Below, piece by piece: positions 14,222 to 29,174 of a stretch of 35,593 nucleotides of DNA. A program made the position numbers and the translations under genes. Where the stretch lies: NCBI GenBank assembly GCA_020351745.1, contig CP070665.1, positions 1,045,743-1,081,335 of the forward strand. The letters are read 5' to 3'. Within the stretch, counting starts at the first letter, position 1, and the number at the start of each line of letters is the position of its first letter. The notes under the pieces were generated by a model. The model was not told where the DNA came from. It was given only the letters and a program-made list of their open reading frames with translations, and ran no database searches. Origin of the DNA: Candidatus Heimdallarchaeota archaeon (lineage in GTDB: Archaea > Asgardarchaeota > Heimdallarchaeia > Hodarchaeales > Hodarchaeaceae).

Positions 14222-15196
14222 TTATGTAGGATTAGAAAACAAGGTTAACCGTTCATGGCACATAGGACATTGATTGAAAACTTTCAACCATTCTAATAAG
14301 TGATTACGATGAAAAGTATTTTGACAGATCGGACAAACGACACTATCAACGTCAGACTCTATAGGAGATCGACAAATTACACACTCCTTTTCAGATTGTT
14401 TAGATACATCCAGAGGGAACGTACTAATTGTCTTACCTTCATGATATTCCTCTACAGCTAAAATCAATTCACCTACCTTATTGTGTTTAAATCTCCCAAC
14501 AATTTCTCCTTGAGACATTACATGCTCAAGAATCCGCTGTAGTAAATGATAATCAACTATTCGATCTTGAATGTGTTTTCGAACTTTGAACATTAGATAA
14601 TCAGACTCAATTACGTTTCGTGGTCGAAAAATTTGTGTATTTATAGTGTTGAGTACAACCTGCCTTACATTTGCTAAAAAAACAATATTTTCCCGTTTTT
14701 CTTTGATTTCTTTTAGAGTTTGATCTACTGACTTGATAATATCATTTAATTCTTTTTTGATGTTAGGATTATTAATAAGAGGGGAGCCCATTGAAATTTC
14801 ATTCTCAGTTAAGTTTAATATCTCCTCCATTTCAACATAAATGTCATTTATTTTTATTAAAATGGTTTTTGCTATTTTTATGGTCTGTAATGGTTCGATC
14901 AATTCAATTTGAACTTTCATTTGCTGTACGGTAAAACGACGGTTTACCAACTCCTCTTGGTAACGAGAAATCTCAATAAAAAAGGGTTGGCGTAATTTTC
15001 TATTTGCAATGTATGAAAAGAGAATACTTAGCAAAAATCCTGCAAAAATGGCAAATTTATTGACATTAGACGATAATCCTGTTCCAATTGTACTTAAAAT
15101 AAATGTAGTTCCGATAAATATTACTACTAGGATAACTAAATTCCCAGTTGTTTTATTTCGTGATAAACGGGAGAGTTTTGTAGAATTAATGGCCAT
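14222..15196 (-). CDS. Membrane-anchored RING-type protein, candidate E3 ligase
   Basis: A 324-residue protein with two N-terminal membrane helices (about 19-38 and 48-66), a long helical, probably coiled-coil cytoplasmic part (70-255), and a C-terminal RING-like zinc domain. The ligands are C272, C275, C288, C291, H296, H299, C310 and C313, spaced C-x2-C-x12-C-x2-C-x4-H-x2-H-x10-C-x2-C, with the TFHRNHLLEWL and CPMCHERL segments seen in RING E3 ligases. Some Asgard and Caldarchaeal genomes encode ubiquitin, E1, E2 and RING proteins, so a membrane-bound ubiquitin ligase is likely, but none of the other components is in this window. I chose ATG 15196, with GGTGG four bases upstream; TTG 15214 would add six residues. 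Confidence 0.8.
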   Translation of the reverse strand: MAINSTKLSRLSRNKTTGNLVILVVIFIGTTFILSTIGTGLSSNVNKFAIFAGFLLSILFSYIANRKLRQPFFIEISRYQEELVNRRFTVQQMKVQIELIEPLQTIKIAKTILIKINDIYVEMEEILNLTENEISMGSPLINNPNIKKELNDIIKSVDQTLKEIKEKRENIVFLANVRQVVLNTINTQIFRPRNVIESDYLMFKVRKHIQDRIVDYHLLQRILEHVMSQGEIVGRFKHNKVGELILAVEEYHEGKTISTFPLDVSKQSEKECVICRSPIESDVDSVVCPICQNTFHRNHLLEWLKVFNQCPMCHERLTLFSNPT

Positions 15197-15299
15197 TATT
15201 CCACCAAAAAACAAATAATATCAATTCAAAACTTTCTGGATTAATGCTATACGAGGATTAATTAAAAACTAGCCTAGAAAATGACTCCGCAAAAAATAC

Positions 15300-16395: not shown

Positions 16396-17136
16396 ATGGT
16401 TCGTTTAAAAGCTGTTTACCTGATTAAAGAGGAAGGATTTGTAATATATAACCAATCATTTGGTGCAACAGAGCAGGATCAGGATATGGTCGCGTCTTTA
16501 CTTATGGCTTTAAGGAGCTTTGGAATGGAGGCTTTGGGAGAGGGATCTTTATCTAAAGTGGACTTTGGTGAAGGGGTAGATATGATCTTGGAAACTGGAA
16601 ACCGATTAGTTGCAATGGCGGTTGTAGTTCTAGATAAGGAACATAAGGAACGAGAAGAGTATGACATTCGTAAAGACTTATTAAAATTCGTTAGACGAAT
16701 TGAGGAGAGTTATGCAGAAGAACTGGATGACCCTATCTTTCAAAAAAGTGCTTTCTCTGGAGTAGGAACCCAGATTTATCAGCATTTTTTCCGTGATAAA
16801 ATGTCCAGGATTCATAACAACCAATTTGCAAGTCTTAATGAGTATTTAAAATATCCCACAACTTTATTATTTGAGATCACTCCTCGGGGGGGAAAACTCT
16901 ATAAATTTTATAGAGAATTTCCAAAATTCACTGAATTAATCGGAGATATCCAGAAAGAAGATTTTGATAAATTGATTAACAGTATGCAAGACAAGAATAG
17001 CATGGTTTCATTTAAAGATTGCCTTGATCTCTTTGGTGAACAGAAGATGGATCAGATTCTCGACATATTCAAATTTTTGACAAATCGAGGAATGTTTGAA
17101 GCCTATAATTTTGAACGAATAGCAGTTGAGTCATAA
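16396..17136 (+). CDS. Longin/roadblock-like protein with C-terminal winged helix
   Basis: A 246-residue soluble protein. Residues 1-110 have the beta-beta-alpha-beta-beta-beta-alpha pattern of the longin/roadblock (profilin-like) fold: VRLKAVYLIKEEGFVIYNQSF, a helix DMVASLLMALRSFGME, strands SKVDFGEGVDMILETGNRLVAMAVVVL and a final long helix. The last 70 residues resemble a winged helix (FKDCLDLFGEQKMDQILDIFKFLTNRGMFEA). Proteins of this type are abundant in Asgard archaea, where they are thought to partner small GTPases; here the GTPase fusion at 28224 is 11 kb away. It starts with ATG, probably from its own promoter (TTTAAAAC near 16364). I do not recognise a named orthologue. Confidence 0.6.
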   Translation: MVRLKAVYLIKEEGFVIYNQSFGATEQDQDMVASLLMALRSFGMEALGEGSLSKVDFGEGVDMILETGNRLVAMAVVVLDKEHKEREEYDIRKDLLKFVRRIEESYAEELDDPIFQKSAFSGVGTQIYQHFFRDKMSRIHNNQFASLNEYLKYPTTLLFEITPRGGKLYKFYREFPKFTELIGDIQKEDFDKLINSMQDKNSMVSFKDCLDLFGEQKMDQILDIFKFLTNRGMFEAYNFERIAVES

Positions 17137-17160: not shown

Positions 17161-18015
17161 CTAGCATGTAACGTCTTTCCCGCACTGAGGACATTTAACA
17201 GTTTTTTCTCGTTGAGTTCGTACAATAAATGCAGTCATTTTCCTCATTTCTTTTTGCATTGTATTGAGTTCGGCTATAATTCTCGTTTCGACAGTGGTGT
17301 TAATTTGCTGGCTCATCACCTCGGGTAGAGCAGAAATGCTTTTAGCCAACTGCTCGGCTGCTTGTACTAATCTTTGAAGAGTTCCATCTTGCATAGCCAA
17401 ACGTTCTGTCACAGATGTCTTAAGCTCGTTGACGGATGACTCTAAGTAAATAGCGATACGATCTCGCAGTGAAGCCAATTCTACTTGGATTATTGCATTC
17501 ACTCGATCCCTAAGTTCAGCAACAGTGGCCAGTTGATCAGTCTGATTCTCAATTAGGGCATTTAGATTACTTACAACGTTGTCAAGTTTGTCTGAAATCA
17601 CTACAAAATTGTTAATACTAGCTTCGAATCGACCCTTGGTTTCTTCGGCTGATGAGTCTACCATAGTGCTAATATCATTAGATAATTTTCGCATACTCCC
17701 AACAACATCTTCTACATAGCTTACCTTAATGAATTTCAGATCGTTCTTTGTTTCTTCAGCAGTTGTTACGAATGTCTTTTGGAAAGCCCCAATGGATCCC
17801 TCAAGTTTAGAAATTACTGAGGGAAGGTTTTGGATTGAAACCTGTAATTCAGAACTAATTTTTGAAGCATTAACTATTTGTTGAATCGAGATAAGCTTTT
17901 CATCAATACTATTTGTTAGTTGGAGGAGGTATTGAACTTCCGAAGGATCTTTAACAGCCTGTTTCACTTCCGAAATCAATTGCAATATTTCTTTAATGTC
18001 ATCTTCTAGGCCCAT
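17161..18015 (-). CDS. Coiled-coil protein with C-terminal zinc knuckle
   Basis: A 284-residue protein that is almost wholly helical: long amphipathic helices with Ile/Leu heptads and Gln/Ser-rich faces, no membrane segment, ending in CPQCGKDVTC. Three cysteines (C-x2-C-x5-C) at the very end suggest half of a zinc ribbon, completed by another chain or by a dimer. It resembles methyl-accepting-type or prefoldin-like rods in composition, but there is no signature. A TGAGGA ribosome-binding site lies six bases before ATG. It follows the 18184 gene by 168 bases, which hold a TATA-like box and a palindrome, so it may be both a promoter-driven gene and the tail of the tubulin-like operon. A structural or tethering role is a guess from context. 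Confidence 0.6.
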   Translation of the reverse strand: MGLEDDIKEILQLISEVKQAVKDPSEVQYLLQLTNSIDEKLISIQQIVNASKISSELQVSIQNLPSVISKLEGSIGAFQKTFVTTAEETKNDLKFIKVSYVEDVVGSMRKLSNDISTMVDSSAEETKGRFEASINNFVVISDKLDNVVSNLNALIENQTDQLATVAELRDRVNAIIQVELASLRDRIAIYLESSVNELKTSVTERLAMQDGTLQRLVQAAEQLAKSISALPEVMSQQINTTVETRIIAELNTMQKEMRKMTAFIVRTQREKTVKCPQCGKDVTC

Positions 18016-18078
18016 GCTATTTCCTCACATCTTATCACTATTGTTGGGTAATAAACTCAAAGATTCTAAAAGATTTTC

Positions 18079-18093
18079 GAGTCTTCAAGACTC
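18079..18093. promoter_or_regulatory. Perfect 15-bp palindrome in a promoter region
   Basis: GAGTCTTCAAGACTC is a perfect inverted repeat of two seven-base arms around one base. The arms are too close for a stable hairpin, so it reads like a binding site for a dimeric regulator. It sits about 65 bases upstream of the start of the coiled-coil gene and just downstream of a TATA-like TTAATAAAAG (minus strand, about 18116-18125), at the position expected for transcription start or leader sequence. Confidence 0.4.
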
Positions 18094-18183
18094 AAGCATT
18101 AATAATATCAATCTTTTATTAAGGTTAATTAAAAAAACCAAACAACTGACAATGAATTTTATTACAAAATTCAAAGGAAAGTA

Positions 18184-19263
18184 TCATTTTAAGCGTCTTA
18201 AAAAAGTCACAAACTTTTCATTTTCTAACATTGTGTTATTTAATCTATTGATCATGATAATTGTTTCTGAGCAGATGAATTGTTTAAAATCATTCCCTAC
18301 TGCTTTCTGTAAATCTAAATAAATTTCTTTTACTACAGAAAATGAAACATTAGGTATTCTAGATTCTAAATCTCCTGTTCCGAGATTATAATTCTGTAGA
18401 ATACTGGAAGAAACACGAAGCGAGTCTTGTAGCTTTCGATTATCACCAGAGTACTCTGAAATACTCAGATAATATTTCTTCACAACATCTTGGACTTGCT
18501 CTAGTTCCAAAGATGTAAGACTTAATTCATCTTCACCAGGAAACAGACGACGGAGGTTTTGGAGTAAGCGTGCAGCTGGAGCTTCTCGTAAGAGCTTACT
18601 AATAAGATTTTTAAACTCAAAAGATGGAATTTGAAAAATTTCGTATGGATTAGGGAGAGAAGACTCAGGTCGAAGCTCATAACGATGTAGCTCTTTACAT
18701 GCGGTAAAATAGTAATTAGGAAAACCTAAATGAGACAAATTTGAGTACGAGGAGAACATCTTTTCAATAGTATCAAGGATTCCCCACTTGTCTTGATAAT
18801 CAATATTTCGTTGAAAAAGACCTATTCTTTCCTCTTGTATTGCAGACGGTTTTCCTAAAACTTCAGTCGATGTAGAAGTACTAGAGAGTTCATCTAACAA
18901 TGAAGAAACTTCAATATTGATTTTTTCAATTTTTTCTGGGATTTCTAAACCTGTTTCTGGCTGTAAAAGTATTTTAGAAAGAAATTCTTCAACCATCGAT
19001 AAGGTTGTAATTGCCTCATCATTAAGGACATAATCACTCCGGAATGCCGTAACTAAGGCTGAAAGAAGCTTAATGAGTAGGAGATTCATACAAATAAGGA
19101 GATTAATTTTCTCTCCCATGTTCCCTCGGGAACTCCAAAAATTAAACGATGGATATTTCTGTTTATCCTTATCTGGTTCTGAATTCGATTGATCTTCGAT
19201 AAATTCATCAGGATTGCGCGAATCTCGTGTAAATTCAAACTTTGGGCTATTTTTTTCGTCCAA
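18184..19263 (-). CDS. Helical protein encoded next to the tubulin-like GTPase
   Basis: A 359-residue protein, not recognised. The N-terminal 45 residues are polar and disordered (EDQSNSEPDKDKQ). The rest is all-helical, with one mildly hydrophobic helix (INLLICMNLLLIKLLSALV, about 53-71) that could touch the membrane, Ser/Thr-rich loops (SSTSTSTEVLG) and several amphipathic helices to the C terminus. The start is TTG 19263; the Shine-Dalgarno-like AAGGTG overlaps the TAA of the tubulin-like gene, and the 14-base gap means tight co-translation with it. This makes a direct partnership with the GTPase likely. It has no motif of known tubulin-binding proteins. Confidence 0.6.
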   Translation of the reverse strand: MDEKNSPKFEFTRDSRNPDEFIEDQSNSEPDKDKQKYPSFNFWSSRGNMGEKINLLICMNLLLIKLLSALVTAFRSDYVLNDEAITTLSMVEEFLSKILLQPETGLEIPEKIEKINIEVSSLLDELSSTSTSTEVLGKPSAIQEERIGLFQRNIDYQDKWGILDTIEKMFSSYSNLSHLGFPNYYFTACKELHRYELRPESSLPNPYEIFQIPSFEFKNLISKLLREAPAARLLQNLRRLFPGEDELSLTSLELEQVQDVVKKYYLSISEYSGDNRKLQDSLRVSSSILQNYNLGTGDLESRIPNVSFSVVKEIYLDLQKAVGNDFKQFICSETIIMINRLNNTMLENEKFVTFLRRLK

Positions 19264-19277
19264 TTTGATCCAGCACC

Positions 19278-20642
19278 TTATTCTGGTTTAATGTAATAAC
19301 CAAACAACTTCTCTAAATCATTGACCGCTGAATCGAGCTCATTCCTTGTTGTTCCTTTTGATCGTTTAAACCAATGCTGCTTTAATTCCGAGTCACCACT
19401 ATGAAGTTGGATAAGTGCTTTGGCCTCCTCAAGAATATCATGTAACTCTGGTATTTTTGGCAAACCAAATAATAGAAGGAGAGAAGCTCGTGTGGTATCA
19501 TCATCATAGGCGCAATATGTAGGAGAAATGCTTGCACCCTTAGCTAAGAATGGTGCTAATGCCTTTTTCAAGAGAGGATCATATTCCACTCGTGCGATAT
19601 TACGGGGACCACTGAGTACAGAGAAAACAGATGAAGCAGCAGGGTTTGTTCCCATGTCTGTTAGGCTGCAATTGGAAAGAGTGTATTCTACTGCAGTTGA
19701 AAGTTGAGAGTCCATTCCACCAATTTCGGGGAACACGGATAGATCATCAAACATTGCAGGAACAACAACACTATCCAATTTCAATGCAAAGTCACCAATA
19801 TCGGTAGTAGGCAATACCTCTTTTCCTACTTCAGGTACACCAGGGGATAGCATTTCAGCAATAGATTCTAATGCTAAGGGGTTAATTAATTCAACAAAAG
19901 CTTCTTCTATCTGAGCTGGATAAGATGTTCCATCTTGACCGATAACAGTTGGGATACTGGAACTAACCTGCTCACTACTTAAATCAGCTAAATCCTTCCC
20001 TATTTGTCTACTCAACAAATCAACAGATTCCCCACGTTGCCAACTTAAAACCCTTTCAAGCATTGTTCTATTAGAAAGAAGAAGAATAAGATCAGGGCCC
20101 ATGTTTCCTTCCTCTAGTTGGAGCCGTAGCAATCTTGATAACGCCCAAACGCTATTAACTGCTTCAGAGGACTGGTTAACGAAAGGTAAGACCCCAAAAA
20201 CATAAATAAAGATTTTACGTTTTTCTTCTTCAGCAAAACGCTTTCTTAGTAATCGTATTAAAGCAGGAGTCCCACCACATCCTGTACCTCCTCCAAAACT
20301 GGTAAAAATGCAAAAACCACTAATTCCTTCATAACCAAGGCCTTGCAACTGGTTTAGAACAATATCTTGAGAATTTATAACCGCCTCGTAACCTGCAGAA
20401 AATTTTCCACCTACTCCAATCTCTGCATCTGAATAAAGAAGAGTCCTTTTCTTGGAAACGGAATATTTCTTTCGTGCTTTCAGTAAGTCTCCCCGATCAG
20501 TATTCATCACTAGATATTCTCTGATACGCTGAGGTAACTCACCTTTTTTTGATTTAGCTAAGTAGCTGCCCACTAGATTTGATCCACATTCACCAATACC
20601 AATAGCAAAGATCTCTGATTCTGATCCTCCTTCAATTGACAT
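19278..20642 (-). CDS. Divergent tubulin/FtsZ-family GTPase
   Basis: A 454-residue protein of the tubulin/FtsZ superfamily. The phosphate-binding tubulin signature reads FGGGTGCGG (G117-G124), preceded by the N-terminal IGIGECGSNLVGSYLAKSK (nucleotide-binding glycine loop) and VMNTDRGDL, a T3-like segment. The length and N-terminal spacing fit FtsZ/CetZ/tubulin-like GTPases. I do not see a clean T7 loop (N-x-D-x-x-D/E): the nearest, INPLALES, keeps Asn and Glu but not the first acidic residue, so hydrolysis may be weak. It is clearly not a standard FtsZ1/FtsZ2 cell-division protein by eye. A TATA-like AATATAAAT lies about 20 bases before ATG, so near-leaderless internal transcription is possible in addition to read-through from the 1170-residue gene (52-base gap). 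Confidence 0.8.
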   Translation of the reverse strand: MSIEGGSESEIFAIGIGECGSNLVGSYLAKSKKGELPQRIREYLVMNTDRGDLLKARKKYSVSKKRTLLYSDAEIGVGGKFSAGYEAVINSQDIVLNQLQGLGYEGISGFCIFTSFGGGTGCGGTPALIRLLRKRFAEEEKRKIFIYVFGVLPFVNQSSEAVNSVWALSRLLRLQLEEGNMGPDLILLLSNRTMLERVLSWQRGESVDLLSRQIGKDLADLSSEQVSSSIPTVIGQDGTSYPAQIEEAFVELINPLALESIAEMLSPGVPEVGKEVLPTTDIGDFALKLDSVVVPAMFDDLSVFPEIGGMDSQLSTAVEYTLSNCSLTDMGTNPAASSVFSVLSGPRNIARVEYDPLLKKALAPFLAKGASISPTYCAYDDDTTRASLLLLFGLPKIPELHDILEEAKALIQLHSGDSELKQHWFKRSKGTTRNELDSAVNDLEKLFGYYIKPE

Positions 20643-20694
20643 TTTGACACACTCAAATTTATATTATTTTTATTTGTTTGTAAGTCATTTAGTT

Positions 20695-23600
20695 CTACAG
20701 TTTGATACCAGATTTAATTTCAATAAGCAATTTCATGACAAGGGATAAATAAGAGCGGATTACCTCATTATGAGGATAAGTCTCTCTGATTTTCTTAGAA
20801 ATTTCTTTATACTGTCGTGAGTTCTCCTCTTTACTCTCTGTTGGGGAATACCGAGGACGGAACATGCGTATAGCGTGATGCCAATGATTTAATTGCACAG
20901 AAACCTTCTTCCACTCATTTCTTTGTTCATCTATTTGTGGTAACAATTCCAAAATATATCTAAGATCATGAGAGTCTAAGAATTCCTCACGAGCTTTTAC
21001 TAATTTAGATAAAGGAAAAATTCTTTTGGAGGCTTCCTCTGTATATCTCTTAAACACTTCTTGAATATTAGAATAATATTCTAAATTCCCCAACTCAGTC
21101 TGTAGAGCAGCATTACGATCCTTTTCAATCTTTTTCATGATTTCTATTACAGATCCTCGTACAGATACCAGTTCGAGTATAGCTTGGGTTAAGCGACTGA
21201 TATGATTTGTGGTAGCAATTTCTTGAAATCGACTCAAATATGCGAGATCAACCCGTTCGTCTTGACGTAGGTCAATTTCGTAATGATTAAATAAATACTC
21301 AACTGCATCTTGAATTTCAGTAATATAGCGTTTTCCCATGGATCTAATTTCTCTACAAGCTTTAGTATCAGTCTGCAAGCGATCAATTTCAACAAAAACC
21401 TCGGTTATTTCCCGTAATTGAACATCTTCTTGGTTTTTAACAATTACTTGGCTAAAAGCCTCTATATACCCCCCTACATGCTCGATAATATTGATCCCGA
21501 CTTCTTTTAAATCATTAACATTTTTCAGAACCTTTCGGGATTCTTTTACACCATGAGCTAGCAGAATTGCAACGATTTCAGTGTCATATAAAAAAATAAG
21601 TTGTCGTAATTTATGTGCTAGTCGCTCATGAGACACTTCTTCAGCTTCAAAATCAGAAATTTTCTTTTCTGCTGCAAAAACAGTATCATCCACAGGTGTG
21701 ATTTCATTTATCCGTGGAAGACTGACTCTTAACCAATTAAAGAGGTTTTGATGAAGAGTTGCTAAGGAATCTTTAGCCATTTGCAAACTTTCCAAACTAT
21801 AACTCTCAAAAACGTTAACTAACCTTACAATATCCTTATGAGTTTTGATTTCAGCCATTTTTTCATGCATAAGTTCCAAGGTTTCTTCAAAAAAGATTGC
21901 ATACTGAGTAGGAAGCTTAGAATAATCCTGTATATGAGAGGAAATCTCACGTTCCATTTGTTCAACCAAGGTTGAAGCTTTTCGTTCAATAAATGCTCTT
22001 AATTGCCAAAATTCCGTTAGGGCTTCAAAATAATCAAGATCATTAATTTCTCTATCAGTAGAATAGATTAAACTGCTTTTTCGAGATTTTAATAAGCGAA
22101 AAAGTCTTCTATCGACTCCCTCAAGATTTGTTATCTGTTTTTTTAATTCAATAAGTATTTCGTTCTTATTTTCTTCAATCGTCTCTAGGAAAGAAATATA
22201 TTCTTTAATTACAGCCCCAATATCTCCTGATTCTGAGTATTTATCAATAGAACTCACTATTTGATTACGTTTTTCCCGTAAATCAAACCGTGTCTCTATG
22301 GGAATCAATGGAAATGGAATTGACTTTAAATTTTCATGGATCCGCGAAGATATCTTGTACTTCCACACTGGAATCTTTTCATACTCATCTAGAAGTTCTT
22401 GGATGCTTTTTTTGGCTGCAGCACTCGCTTCATCTCGGAATGATTTTAAATCTTCTACTGCAAGGATCGGAACATGTGCTTTTAATTTGGGAGGAATTGT
22501 TTCCAAATTTGTAAGTTGATGGTAAATTGGATGTATCTCATTATCCATTTTGTTCCAAAGCTCGGTTTTGATATTTGCATTAAGACGATGTAGTACTTCA
22601 ATTTCATGAACCAAGTCTCGAATATCTATCTCTTCTACAATTTTTTGTTTCCTTTGATATTCGATTTGATCTTTCAGGTCTTTAGATAGAATATCCCGTA
22701 AACTTTCACGAGAATCATATAGATTCAACAAATTTTGTCTAAGGCTTTGTTGAGCAGGTTTTGAAAAGTAAGCAACCAAACGGGTCTCCCAATCCTTTAT
22801 TTCTCGGGCTTTACTACTTAATTCACTTGGGGAGAGAGCTTCAAAATCACGAATGGTTGGTATTTGAGGCCCCTCAACTAAATTTATCACTTCTTGGATA
22901 TGAGGATTCTCTAAAAGTCTGAAGAAATAATTCTGACACTCTTCAGCTAAAGATGACTTCAATTCATGATATCTTTTTGCTAGTTCTACCCATTCTTGAA
23001 GGTCTCTTGTTTTTGCTGCGTCTTTCCCAATTGTTCTTACGTCTTTAGTGAAATCAGGAGGAACTGGTATCTTCATTGCACGAATAGCTTTAGAAGCATT
23101 GATTAATTCAGAGGTACTGATCATTTTCTTTGTAGCGATAATCTGCTGCTGGCGCCAAGAGCGGATTTTCTCAATATCTTGGATTATGGTTGGTATACTT
23201 GTAGAAGAAACATCTGTTTCTGGAACAGGTGAAAAAGAAGATTCCAATCCTTCTCTCCCTGTAATCTGTATAATCAATCCAATTTGGTCTTCTGTTTCGG
23301 TTTTTAATGAGATTTCATATGTTCGAAGCGCGTTTACGAACTCGTTACTTAGTAAGTTTAATCTCTTCTCCAATCCAATGAGAGTTTCTACTGAAGTTGT
23401 TTTCTCTGTACTGGTTTGAATATCTTGTATTTCCTCCTTCAAAGCATCTATTTTTGCCCAAAGATCCAAACCAATTGAAGCTACCGTATCAATATGTTGT
23501 TGTAATTCAGAAGACATTTGAATTATTGCCAGTTGAATTTTACCTTCTGTACCTTTCCTGCGTTGCTTTAAATACGCGTTTTCAGCTTCTAACTGGCTAT

Positions 23601-24207
23601 AAACTTCCAACAAGTCAGGAATAGCCATCACATGAATACTTGTCTTTGTAGTTTGATTTGTGATTCGTATCTTTTCTTCATCAAAATTAACAAATTTACC
23701 ATAAAGTTCGATAATCTCTCGATTAAATAATAAGATAGAAACGTTTTTTCCTCGTAAGACCTCAGATATCTGATTATACGTTCTAAGTACACCTGAACTA
23801 AATTTTACGATTTCATTGACATTAAAACTGGGAATTTGTAGCTTACGAATGGTTTCTGTTTCTTGGGGGATAAATTTGGCAATTTCCTTGATGTTATTTG
23901 CCAGGTCAAAGTAAATCTTACGATATCCAACTAAAAGGGTGTTTAACAAATCCTCGGATAGCTTGCCAAATTTCTCTTTATTCTGAGTAAGAGCCTTCTT
24001 CATTCCCCTCTTTTTGAAGAATCCTGCTGTAGGCAAGTCTTTTTCCAGTTTTTCAATTTCTATCACTAATTTTTGAGCTTCATTCAAAGTGGAAACAGCT
24101 TGCACTGTTGGGTCAATTGATCGTAATTCAGTCACTAAATCTCGAATCTTATGAAGAACTTCCTTTGAAAGGAGTTCTCCTTCTTCCGATGTCATATTGG
24201 CTAGCAT
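20695..24207 (-). CDS. Very long helical, spectrin-like protein
   Basis: A 1170-residue protein predicted to be helical almost throughout, with no membrane segment, no signal peptide and no known domain. Helices of about 25-35 residues alternate with short breaks that often carry Ile/Leu-Pro (KIPV, SIPFPLIP, KLPT, TIPP), giving an irregular repeat of three-helix-like units as in spectrin or plectin rods. A basic amphipathic segment (FFKKRGMKKAL) near residue 65 could bind membrane or a partner. It is the first gene of the operon with the tubulin-like GTPase. ATG 24207 lies inside a duplicated promoter module; ATG 24195 (MTSEEG) is an alternative start. Rod-like proteins made with a filament-forming GTPase suggest a scaffold, cross-linker or motor-like tether. 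Confidence 0.7.
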   Translation of the reverse strand: MLANMTSEEGELLSKEVLHKIRDLVTELRSIDPTVQAVSTLNEAQKLVIEIEKLEKDLPTAGFFKKRGMKKALTQNKEKFGKLSEDLLNTLLVGYRKIYFDLANNIKEIAKFIPQETETIRKLQIPSFNVNEIVKFSSGVLRTYNQISEVLRGKNVSILLFNREIIELYGKFVNFDEEKIRITNQTTKTSIHVMAIPDLLEVYSQLEAENAYLKQRRKGTEGKIQLAIIQMSSELQQHIDTVASIGLDLWAKIDALKEEIQDIQTSTEKTTSVETLIGLEKRLNLLSNEFVNALRTYEISLKTETEDQIGLIIQITGREGLESSFSPVPETDVSSTSIPTIIQDIEKIRSWRQQQIIATKKMISTSELINASKAIRAMKIPVPPDFTKDVRTIGKDAAKTRDLQEWVELAKRYHELKSSLAEECQNYFFRLLENPHIQEVINLVEGPQIPTIRDFEALSPSELSSKAREIKDWETRLVAYFSKPAQQSLRQNLLNLYDSRESLRDILSKDLKDQIEYQRKQKIVEEIDIRDLVHEIEVLHRLNANIKTELWNKMDNEIHPIYHQLTNLETIPPKLKAHVPILAVEDLKSFRDEASAAAKKSIQELLDEYEKIPVWKYKISSRIHENLKSIPFPLIPIETRFDLREKRNQIVSSIDKYSESGDIGAVIKEYISFLETIEENKNEILIELKKQITNLEGVDRRLFRLLKSRKSSLIYSTDREINDLDYFEALTEFWQLRAFIERKASTLVEQMEREISSHIQDYSKLPTQYAIFFEETLELMHEKMAEIKTHKDIVRLVNVFESYSLESLQMAKDSLATLHQNLFNWLRVSLPRINEITPVDDTVFAAEKKISDFEAEEVSHERLAHKLRQLIFLYDTEIVAILLAHGVKESRKVLKNVNDLKEVGINIIEHVGGYIEAFSQVIVKNQEDVQLREITEVFVEIDRLQTDTKACREIRSMGKRYITEIQDAVEYLFNHYEIDLRQDERVDLAYLSRFQEIATTNHISRLTQAILELVSVRGSVIEIMKKIEKDRNAALQTELGNLEYYSNIQEVFKRYTEEASKRIFPLSKLVKAREEFLDSHDLRYILELLPQIDEQRNEWKKVSVQLNHWHHAIRMFRPRYSPTESKEENSRQYKEISKKIRETYPHNEVIRSYLSLVMKLLIEIKSGIKL

Positions 24208-25677: not shown

Positions 25678-27978
25678 ATGACTGACGATAATGATTCATT
25701 ACTATTAAAAGTTGCAGAGGCGAACCAAGGGGATGTGGGCCGAGGCTTAGTTCGCATAGATTATTCCATCATGCGGGAAAATGGGTTAGAAACAGGAGAT
25801 ATAATAGAGATTTCTAGTGAGAGAGCTGGAGGAAGAAAAACAGGTGCCTTGGTCATACCCGGAAGACGAGAAGATAGGGGCAAAAGAATCATTAGGATGG
25901 ACGGGTTGATTAGGGGTAATGTAAGGACAAGTCTAGGTGAGACTGTTCGTATACGGCAAATCAAAAAACGTGAAGCAAAACGTATCACTATAGCTCCTGC
26001 AGAAGAACGTATTCGGCTTTTAGTTAGGTCAGAAATAATTCGTGAACGCTTACAGAATCATCCAGTTTCGCGTGGAGATTTACTGGTTATAACGGGACAA
26101 ATCCGTAAGATTCCTCCCTCTGGAGGTACCAGTGGTACAGGAATGGATGATTTTATATCTCGTTTCTTCGGTGCATCAAGTCCCGTATCCTTGGGCGAGA
26201 TTAAAGTTGTGGTCGTCGCAACGGATCCAGAAGGCATTGTAACGGTAGGAGATACAACAGAAGTTAATATTGTTGAGGAGGCTCCCAAAGATCTCCGAAT
26301 GATGCCACGAGTGACATACGAGGATATCGGTGGACTATCAGAGGAGATTAAGCGGGTGAGGGAGATGATAGAGCTTCCTATGAAACATCCTGAGCTCTTT
26401 GAACGGCTAGGTATCGACCCTCCAAAAGGTGTTTTATTACATGGACCTCCAGGTACAGGTAAAACGCTACTTGCCAAAGCTGTTGCAAATGAATCGGGAG
26501 TAAATTTTGTATCAATTGCTGGGCCTGAAATTATGTCAAAATTTTATGGCGAAAGTGAACAACGAATTCGTGAGATTTTTCAACAAGCCGAGAAAGAAGC
26601 CCCAAGTATTATTTTTATAGATGAATTAGATTCTATCGCAGTAAAACGGGAAGAAGTTACTGGAGAGGTTGAAAGACGAGTTGTTGCCCAATTATTAGCC
26701 TTAATGGATGGTTTAAAGAGTCGTGGTAAGGTTATAGTCATAGGAGCTACGAATCGGCCCAACGCACTCGATCCTGCCTTGCGAAGACCTGGACGGTTTG
26801 ACAGAGAGATTGAAATTGGGGTTCCAGATAGAAACGGGCGCTATGAAGTCTTGTTAGTTCATACGAGAGGAATGCCCATTGATGAAGATGTCGATTTAGA
26901 AGAATATGCAGCTAAAACGCACGGTTTTGTTGGAGCAGACATCGCTGCTCTCACAAAAGAAGCTGCAATGCATACTCTTCGGAAAGTTTTACCAAAAATT
27001 GATTTTGATAAACCTCTCACGCCAGAGATTCTTTCAAAACTCGTTGTCTCGAAAGAAAACTTCGATGAAGCACTTAAGATCACAGAACCTTCTGCAATGC
27101 GCGAAGTGTTACTGGAGATTCCAAATATTCACTGGAAAGATGTTGGGGGTCTTGAAGGGGTAAAACAACAGCTCATCGAAGCCGTAGAATGGCCTATTAC
27201 TCATCCAGAGATGTTTCAACGCCATGGTATTACCCCTCCTCATGGTATTCTTCTTTATGGCCCACCTGGGACTGGAAAGACTCTTTTAGCCAAAGCTGTT
27301 GCCACTGAGAGTCAAGCGAATTTCATTGCAATTCGGGGGCCTGAACTTCTGTCCAAATGGGTTGGGGAAAGCGAAAAAGCTGTCCGTGAAGTTTTCAGGA
27401 AAGCCAAACAAGCCTCTCCTTCTATTATTTTCTTAGACGAACTTGATGCCATTGCTCCCCGTCGAGGAGTATTTACAGGTGGTAGTCATGTCACGGAGAG
27501 CGTTGTGAACCAAATATTGTCATTACTAGATGGTTTAGAGAGTCTTCGTGATGTTGTGGTACTTGGTGCAAGTAATCGACCGGATATGATCGATCCTGCT
27601 CTTCTCAGACCTGGGAGGTTTGATCGATTATTATTAGTGAAACCTCCTGATATTAAATCTCGAGAAAAAATCTTACAGATTCATACAAGTGGAATGAAGC
27701 TGGCTTCAGATGTTGACATTTCTCAACTTGCTAGTGACTTAGATGGATATGTAGGTGCAGATTTAGCAGCAATTTGCCGTGAAGCTGTTATGATTGCTCT
27801 CCGTGAAGATTTAAAAACAGAATTAATTGAAAAACGTCATTTTTTTGAAGCAAAAAAAGCTATTCATCCCAGTATTAGTGATAAGATTATCAAAGAGTTT
27901 GAAGAATTAGAACGTAAGCTCTTAGGTAAATCGGAAATTGGTCGAAAAGACGTACTAGGATTGAAAGATTATCTCTGA
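25678..27978 (+). CDS. cdc48: Cdc48/VAT-type double AAA+ ATPase
   Basis: A 766-residue protein with the complete Cdc48/p97/VAT layout: N domain (about 1-205), D1 with Walker A GPPGTGKT at 256-263 and DELD starting at residue 315, D2 with Walker A at 528-535 and DELD from residue 587. Sensor and arginine-finger segments ([36 protein letters not shown]) are present in both rings, so both should be active. It unfolds proteins, feeding the proteasome and other machines. The C terminus ends KDYL, with Tyr in second-last place but Asp before it, so it is only a near match to the HbYX proteasome-docking motif. ATG 25678 is the start; a nearer upstream ATG (25653) is stopped after ten codons. A TATA-like ACTATATATATTAG lies near 25593-25606. 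Confidence 0.97.
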
Positions 27979-28223: not shown

Positions 28224-29174
28224 TCACTTGGTATTGTCTTCAGATCGAATTATTTGTTTATAAATGTCTAAAGGCCACTGTTTCTCCATCAATTTTAGAA
28301 GCACGCGGGAATCAAATTGATCAATCTCAATTGAAGCTGAGGCTGTTTTCATTAATCGTTCAGCGATCAATTTAGATCGTACAACAGAATCAGAGTAACC
28401 AATTATGAGGCCAATCACTAAAGGATGATTTTTCACGATAACAAGCTGAAGATCGGAAGCAGTGATTACTTCCATTCCAGTAGGATTCTTAGATAGCTCC
28501 CTCACTGTTTCGCTGATTCCTGTGTTCAGCTGATCCAGAATAAAACTTTCTATGTTTGTGAATTTTGTGGTATAGATCTGATGTGTTTCGAGATCAATTA
28601 AAATAACCACACGTACTTTACATTTGAATGTGGACTCGATTCCAGCCAATATATCGGCTATCCAATCAAACGCATCATAAAAATTCTCACCAGTCTTTGC
28701 TGATACTCGAAACAGACCTACAGGCCTATCTGATCTTTGTGCTCGAGCCAGATCAAGATCTTGTACTATCAGATCAAAAGCTCGTGCCCCCGCTAAGTCA
28801 ATTTTATTAGCAATAAAGAGAACAGGAGCATTCTCATTCTTCTGGATAGAATCCCAAAAAGCCTCTGATGCTTCTGCAATACGAATGTCAGCACTATCAA
28901 GTACAAAAACGATTGCTGAAGCTTTTACTAGAGAATCATGCCATAGGAGGTTACGGTAAATCTCTTGTCCACCCAAATCGACCAGATTAAACTCAATTTG
29001 TCGATATCTTACGGTTCGATAGTTGACACCAAGAGTTCGTGTCGTAGGAACAAATTCTGAACGTAAAAGTCTATTTACGATTGTGGTTTTTCCAGCACCG
29101 TCGAGACCAATAATAGTAATCTCATATTTCTCGACTTTTTCTCCTTTGAAAATTCTTCGTAGTATGCTCGACAC
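28224..29174 (-). CDS. Arf-like small GTPase fused to a roadblock/longin-like domain
   Basis: A 316-residue protein. Residues 17-178 are a complete Arf/Ras-type GTPase: G1 GLDGAGKT (23-30), switch I Thr in TRTLGVN, G3 DLGGQE (66-71), G4 NKID (123-126) and G5 SAKTG (158-162). No N-terminal Gly for myristoylation is present; the leader MSSILRRIFKGEK is basic and amphipathic. Residues 185-300 form a second domain, with strands CKVRVVILIDLETHQIYTTKF, a helix, GMEVITASDLQLVIVKNHPLVIGLII and a final helix, the roadblock/longin pattern. In eukaryotes such domains act as GTPase regulators or scaffolds in separate chains. The start is GTG 29174, with GGTGG seven bases before it. It is monocistronic with its own promoter region. 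Confidence 0.88.
   Translation of the reverse strand: MSSILRRIFKGEKVEKYEITIIGLDGAGKTTIVNRLLRSEFVPTTRTLGVNYRTVRYRQIEFNLVDLGGQEIYRNLLWHDSLVKASAIVFVLDSADIRIAEASEAFWDSIQKNENAPVLFIANKIDLAGARAFDLIVQDLDLARAQRSDRPVGLFRVSAKTGENFYDAFDWIADILAGIESTFKCKVRVVILIDLETHQIYTTKFTNIESFILDQLNTGISETVRELSKNPTGMEVITASDLQLVIVKNHPLVIGLIIGYSDSVVRSKLIAERLMKTASASIEIDQFDSRVLLKLMEKQWPLDIYKQIIRSEDNTK

Follow-up and report, generated by a model that had tools for sequence, protein, structure and literature searches.

The window analysed here, a stretch of 35,593 nucleotides, comes from an Asgard genome assembled as a single contig of 1.39 Mb, with an estimated completeness of 71.5%. The nearest named relatives of this genome are titled Candidatus Heimdallarchaeota, Hodarchaeum and Hodarchaeota. 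Four genes follow one another on the minus strand (Table 1), in the order given in the original prediction. They encode a long helical protein (the rod), a GTPase of the tubulin superfamily, a helical protein (p359) and a coiled-coil protein. The gaps that separate them measure 52, 14 and 168 bases, the second being the spacing predicted between the GTPase and p359. The tubulin signature FGGGTGCGG expected in the GTPase is present, and this protein matches PF00091 with an E-value of 1.9e-17 and a score of 64.6 bits (cut-off 33). In the following, G, L and f designate genomes, loci and family groups, respectively; the window belongs to group f1 (Hodarchaeales).

Table 1. Coordinates of the genes and of the presumed catalytic aspartates in the window
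Feature	Position	Strand	Description
Rod	20695..24207	-	1170 aa; heads the cluster; few Pro and Gly residues; Pfam matches all below cut-off
Tubulin-superfamily GTPase	19278..20642	-	454 aa; PF00091 64.6 bits, model pTM 0.85, separate clade
p359 helical partner	18184..19263	-	359 aa, TTG start; N-terminal hairpin, well-predicted C-terminal helical domain
Coiled-coil protein	17161..18015	-	284 aa; lineage-bound fourth gene
GTPase residues D281 to D284 (T7/H8; aspartates presumed catalytic)	19791..19802	-	invariant in 28/28; placed via the model

Comparison with the homologous locus L033 indicated purifying selection on all four genes, strongest for the GTPase. The dS values ranged from 1.4 to 1.8, and dN was lowest for the GTPase (0.029), followed by the rod (0.077), the coiled-coil protein (0.270) and p359 (0.335). 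Since dS was inestimable against a second locus, L036, this result is that of the L033 comparison.

Several other genes are located close to the cluster: a RING-finger protein (14222-15214, minus strand), a CDC48-type AAA ATPase (25678-27978, plus strand) and an Arf-family GTPase (28224-29174, minus strand). Pointing towards the cluster's end is the plus-strand gene of a 246-aa protein (16396-17136), present in seven f1 loci. It gave a single Pfam match, at E 0.6, and looks longin- or roadblock-like by eye.

Distribution and gene order in Asgard genomes

The survey covered 227 Asgard species genomes, 77 of them in the seven family groups that carry the GTPase (f1, f2, f9, f10, f11, f26 and f28) and 150 in 22 other groups. 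The GTPase was found in 72 genomes, corresponding to 72/77 within the seven groups and 0/150 elsewhere. Sequence search at E 0.001 and search with a family profile each returned 76 genomes, reduced to 72 by removing weak matches, of FtsZ type in the former case (G032, G166, G171 and G173) and in G170, G171, G173 and G178 in the latter. Genes for the rod and p359 were detected in 70 and 68 of the 227 genomes, respectively, always inside the same seven groups. At least one of the three genes occurs in 73 genomes and all three in 65.

Where p359 and the GTPase share a contig, p359 is located downstream on the same strand within less than 300 bases in 63 of 65 cases. The rod gene lies upstream, under the same limits, in 64 of 67, a count made after secondary pieces of one rod had been removed from the matches. 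The deviating cases are G217, G045 and G042, where the genes are 8.2, 9.8 and 4.3 kb apart, respectively, G187, with a gap of 564 bases, and a second GTPase of G050 that has no p359 nearby. Several large open frames fill the roughly 8.2 kb between GTPase and p359 in G217 (L129); in G042 an open frame of 1202 aa (L038:6154-9762), for which Pfam gave nothing at E 0.01, stands between rod and GTPase, the two genes that are 9.8 kb apart in G045. Five genomes gave no p359 (G044, G051, G052, G186 and G219), but the neighbouring gene found there lies no more than about 40 bases from the end of its contig, so that these cases cannot be counted as absences. The rod match of G049 covers the C-terminal part only (659-aa frame).

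The conserved core unit is therefore made of three genes, rod, GTPase and p359, which are neighbours in related genomes throughout the seven family groups. The four-gene order of the original prediction holds for these three and fails for the coiled-coil gene, which was found in eight loci, all from f1, among those searched (L033-L062).

Relatives beyond the Asgard phylum were sought in genome contigs, plasmids and viral contigs. The scan of genome contigs, which finds close relatives, yielded 10 loci, all titled Heimdallarchaeota, Hodarchaeota or Hodarchaeum.

Other neighbours are found in individual lineages. Genes with CoA-binding and Succ_CoA_lig domains are located close to p359 in f26 and f28 loci (one was scanned); they look metabolic and lineage-bound, and we rejected them as parts of the module. 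In 12 of 15 f28 loci the region upstream of the rod holds a divergent gene, in whole or in part, all copies falling into one cluster; the copy at L045:7509-9416 gave matches to WD40-type propellers, below cut-offs.

Sequence and predicted fold of the GTPase

The GTPase scored 30.9 bits against TIGR00065, the FtsZ equivalog (cut-off 295.2), and 20.5 bits against PF13809, Tubulin_2 (cut-off 27), both below threshold. An alignment of 28 orthologues showed that the key residues of the nucleotide loops are invariant: G15, G17, E18, C19, G20 and N22 in T1, the motif GGGTGCG in T4 and N191 in T6. Also invariant are D281 and D284, in a region that the secondary structure of the model designates as T7/H8 and that reads PTTDxxD. 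Two sequence aligners, hhalign and MAFFT, placed T7 at other residues. The prediction of a T7 loop unlike those of FtsZ1, FtsZ2 and CetZ is borne out at the presumed asparagine, replaced in the family by threonine (or valine-threonine); however, judging from the model, the acidic pair of the FtsZ T7 is probably kept, and the departure would consist mainly of this change from N to T.

The AlphaFold model of the GTPase (pLDDT 83) shows the order of elements of a full tubulin, with a core helix (241-268), H8 at PTTDxxD, a second domain and three predicted C-terminal helices (398-414, 419-429 and 433-447). A family-specific insert with pLDDT below 50 (205-244) is located just ahead of the T7 region. 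By its PF00091 score and by this predicted fold, including core helix and second domain, the protein belongs to the tubulin/FtsZ superfamily.

In structural comparison with VIA-align, the model superposed best on OdinTubulin (Z 36.3, rmsd 3.1, 366 residues within positions 6-454, a range that includes the three C-terminal helices). OdinTubulin accounts for three of the 50 entries listed and the other 47 are tubulin entries with Z from 34.8 to 36.0; identity over the OdinTubulin and tubulin entries is 13-19%. No CetZ or FtsZ is among these 50, which does not speak against those families. Foldseek ranked CetZ first and OdinTubulin next, with nearly equal E-values, and the best sequence relatives in the PDB were CetZ chains. 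Profile comparison of the N-domain gave P 2.5e-13 for CetZ, 1.3e-10 for FtsZ and 2.1e-10 for tubulin. For the C-terminal part, local comparison gave P 5.3e-4 for tubulin (29 columns, in the last helix), 0.042 for CetZ and 0.61 for FtsZ, the tubulin value being one short, weak match among six comparisons; in global mode this part matched none of the three profiles. From the predicted model and this short match, the GTPase looks like a mosaic, with a CetZ/FtsZ-like front and a tubulin-like end.

Phylogenetic position of the GTPase family

A tree on the full set of alignment columns was built from 51 sequences: 15 of the GTPase family, 18 FtsZ, five haloarchaeal CetZ, three Asgard tubulins and 10 of another Heimdallarchaeia group described below. 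Three sequences (G036_div3, G072 and G035_div) were dropped beforehand. The trees did not include artubulin, AtubC or eukaryotic tubulins, the latter having been met in the structural and PDB-sequence comparisons only. Because MAFFT and the model disagree on T7, a second tree was restricted to the N-domain. Every group formed one side of a branch in both, with support for the GTPase family of 100/100 and 100/98, respectively. In these sequence trees the family is thus a clade separate from FtsZ, CetZ, tubulin and the other Heimdallarchaeia group tested. The window GTPase lies outside both Asgard FtsZ and the five haloarchaeal CetZ, as had been predicted.

The stem branch of the family is long (2.07 changes per column in the full-column tree). 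The full-column tree joins the family to CetZ (support 89/64) and the N-domain tree to tubulin (53/31), where long branches meet; N-domain tests of the sister position rejected neither CetZ (p 0.463), FtsZ (p 0.336) nor the other Heimdallarchaeia group (p 0.234). As the two trees disagree, we do not claim any single sister group, CetZ or tubulin.

Putative partner proteins

Rods vary in length from 894 to 1311 aa according to lineage (26 sequences aligned, one of which, L043 with 1060 aa, is cut by a contig end). Their invariant residues are mostly C-terminal (W1099, W1109, H1110, Y1153 and L1154), with F773 in addition. No Pfam match exceeded its cut-off, either for the rod or for the coiled-coil protein, and the rod profile found no convincing solved relative. 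A unit of about 120 residues recurs in both f2 rods, three of six pairs reaching Z 7.7-10.1 and three remaining weak (Z -0.3 to 2.4). In six of seven f1 rods this stretch was matched a second time by profile only; in the plain pairwise test the window rod gave Z 1.0, below the control pair (1.4). Profile windows revealed no internal repeats in short rods.

Pfam and NCBIfam searches with p359 gave nothing up to E 1. Its model combines a low-confidence N-terminal hairpin with a confidently predicted C-terminal helical domain. Foldseek gave no match under E 0.44 and the profile no convincing solved relative; the best structural comparison, Z 8.3, falls on the hairpin, and the VIA entries cover mainly residues 42-136, so that they barely address the C-terminal domain. 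In 24 of 26 aligned sequences, the 19-residue segment of highest hydrophobicity falls in the first hairpin helix. The hydrophobic stretch reaches the common membrane threshold of 1.6 in seven of the 26 (2.25 in the window), which we count as weak support for a putative membrane tether; p359 may touch the membrane.

The zinc knuckle predicted at the C-terminus of the coiled-coil protein exists in the window as a Cys-rich tail (CPQCGKDVTC), but this tail is missing from all seven orthologues aligned (eight found; L039 was left out of the alignment). PADLOC matches of the protein (ZorA and LmuB) and a weak PHROG match were taken as coiled-coil similarity.

A second rod-GTPase pair

Three Hodarchaeales genomes (G041, G045 and G050) possess a second GTPase, 55-56% identical to that of the window and preceded by its own rod of 1140-1143 aa. 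No recognisable p359 was found within the 11-20 kb of sequence examined around this pair. The repeated pairing of rod and GTPase is the best evidence in this analysis that the two work together. In the tree, the two second-copy GTPases included do not adjoin the f1 first copies, so that duplication in place and transfer are both possible. At these loci (L126 in G050, L127 in G045 and L128 in G041) the neighbours of the pair include genes for small GTPase domains of Gtr1/RagA type; two of these genes, both in L126, were scanned with Pfam. A gene of 310-312 aa without family match is present upstream of the second rod; we rejected it as a p359 relative (hhalign probability 0.1).

A candidate cytoskeletal module

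We propose, with a probability of about 0.55, that the three genes encode a chromosomal Asgard cytoskeletal module based on its own family of tubulin-superfamily GTPases, in which the rod would be a linker and p359 an adaptor or membrane tether. The GTPase would bind GTP through T1-T6 and assemble into protofilaments by head-to-tail polymerisation, with D281 and D284 in the T7 of each subunit completing the GTPase site of its neighbour; by such an arrangement one gene can give a homopolymer. In tubulins, the C-terminal helices are exposed on the outside, where they bind partner proteins. The conserved helices at the corresponding end of the GTPase could be the docking site of p359 and of the rod, the latter through its conserved C-terminus. 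With its hydrophobic first helix, p359 might serve as adaptor or membrane tether, and the rod might space or cross-link filaments, or tie them to another structure. We infer polymerisation, GTPase activity, partner contacts and the roles of p359 and rod from the genes and the predicted fold; the filament, scaffold and tether of the original prediction are likewise inferred. Because one or two further tubulin/FtsZ-family genes accompany the GTPase in most carriers (three PF00091 genes in 40 of 47 f28 genomes), we consider division a less likely role than cell shape, protrusions or inner organisation.

It could well be, although we put it below even odds, that the GTPase corresponds to 'Asg.Tub', a CetZ-like group already noticed but uncharacterised (Santana-Molina et al. 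2023), which may itself work as a cytoskeletal module. PMC9871819 reports that this group, CetZ-like and from Asgard archaea, changes its place in trees, and that such archaeal groups have mostly coiled-coil neighbours. The CetZ affinities of the GTPase, in its N-domain profile and its best solved sequence relatives, agree with this identity, and one named carrier is the MAG B3_Heim. Asg.Tub is described as scarce, in Heimdallarchaeia and Lokiarchaeia, which, compared by description, argues against a family present in 72/227 genomes. Were the two identical, the gene cluster and its wide distribution alone would be new.

Rather unlikely, in our opinion, is a non-polymerising or lid-like switch with rod and p359 as effector complex, as with signalling GTPases. 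The long stem branch, the replacement of the presumed T7 asparagine and the insert 205-244 would suit such a switch; the full tubulin fold predicted and the invariance of the key nucleotide-loop residues and of both presumed T7 acids in 28 sequences argue against it. A part in cell division, whether as the third component of an FtsZ-like ring or as the regulator of one, seems improbable. Superfamily membership is compatible with it, and in G068 and G070 (f11, each about 80% complete) the family GTPase is the sole PF00091 gene found; FtsZ may be missing from these two genomes, and a division role is possible there. Most carriers, however, have further PF00091 genes, and those included in the tree proved to be FtsZ; none of the 150 Asgard genomes outside the seven groups has the family; and FtsZ genes are at least 200 kb away in G000, G050 and G184. 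A DNA segregation system of the plasmid or phage type (TubZ/PhuZ-like), in which p359 or the rod would act as adaptor, would explain a tubulin-like GTPase adjoining a small partner gene but can practically be dismissed, given the stable presence within family groups and the negative searches: tblastn of the GTPase against a plasmid collection (no match at E 1; OdinTubulin gave none at E 0.1), viral contigs (111 pattern matches, 0 confirmed), PHROG (no match at E 0.01 for GTPase, rod or p359) and Pfam/NCBIfam scans (no DNA-binding domain recognised).

Relation to known systems

The proposed module shares features with several tubulin-superfamily systems. CetZ is nearest in N-domain profile and tops the PDB sequence matches and the Foldseek comparison, but the GTPase belongs to another clade in both trees and its C-terminal part gave no convincing match to that of CetZ. 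Moreover, the annotated features within 1.5 kb of five haloarchaeal CetZ genes include no rod or p359 and are others, one of them a coiled-coil protein. The predicted fold superposes on OdinTubulin, AtubA/B, BtubA/B and eukaryotic tubulins, and its last helix may resemble theirs, by the short profile match; in contrast, identity is low and the clade is distinct from the three Asgard tubulins. With Asgard FtsZ1 and FtsZ2 the GTPase has in common the superfamily, the nucleotide loops and the presumed T7 acidic pair, whereas it differs in TIGR00065 score, clade and C-terminal profile. Like FtsZl1/Tubulin_2 (PF13809), it is a divergent FtsZ-like GTPase clustered with helical parts, but its PF13809 score is below cut-off and the helical parts are separate proteins. 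The accessible parts of PMC2875224 describe vWA, kinase and OmpA partners for FtsZl1; Pfam recognised none of these among the core genes. Asg.Tub, a CetZ-like Asgard group of unsettled position, is set apart from our family by its described scarcity.

Non-canonical Asgard tubulin/FtsZ members are mentioned without detail in the accessible parts of PMC9856176. No description of a rod-GTPase-p359 cluster appears in the accessible parts of PMC2875224, PMC9871819, PMC13394414, PMC13371889, PMC12583498, PMC9856176, PMC10936438 and PMC12993045, preprints and most subscription journals lying outside this scope. A 2026 paper (PMC13394414) puts tubulins in about 1% of Asgard genomes, as compared to 72/227 for the present family.

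Asgard archaea are thought to be closest to complex cells, and whether microtubules arose among them is debated. GTPase, rod and p359 look like an unstudied cytoskeleton kit, and the module is a concrete candidate, open to experiment, for a second cytoskeleton in the nearest lineage to eukaryotes. The family is possibly a step between FtsZ/CetZ and tubulin. Only tentatively would we regard it as a surviving stem lineage between them, with a CetZ/FtsZ-like nucleotide domain, tubulin-type C-terminal helices, its own filament-binding rod and adaptor, and early Asgard ancestry. If so, no tubulin-like cytoskeleton other than FtsZ would be as widespread in Asgard archaea, Hodarchaeales among them, and its combination of a prokaryotic tubulin with associated proteins would have no counterpart among the systems described. 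A hydrophobicity check found no membrane-like stretch in GTPase or rod, which makes both reasonable targets for expression and cryo-EM.

The other divergent tubulin-superfamily group mentioned above is carried by Heimdallarchaeia of f3-f6 and forms one side of a branch with support of 100/99 and 99/96. It may be unnamed or may correspond to Asg.Tub. In G035 (f6), one of the tubulins is identical to chain A of PDB 24rt, in agreement with the Heimdallarchaeales MAG of PMC13371889 and PMC13394414; f25 probably corresponds to Odin. The loci of the group are L115, L116, L118, L119, L120, L122, L123 and L124, sometimes with two genes close together.
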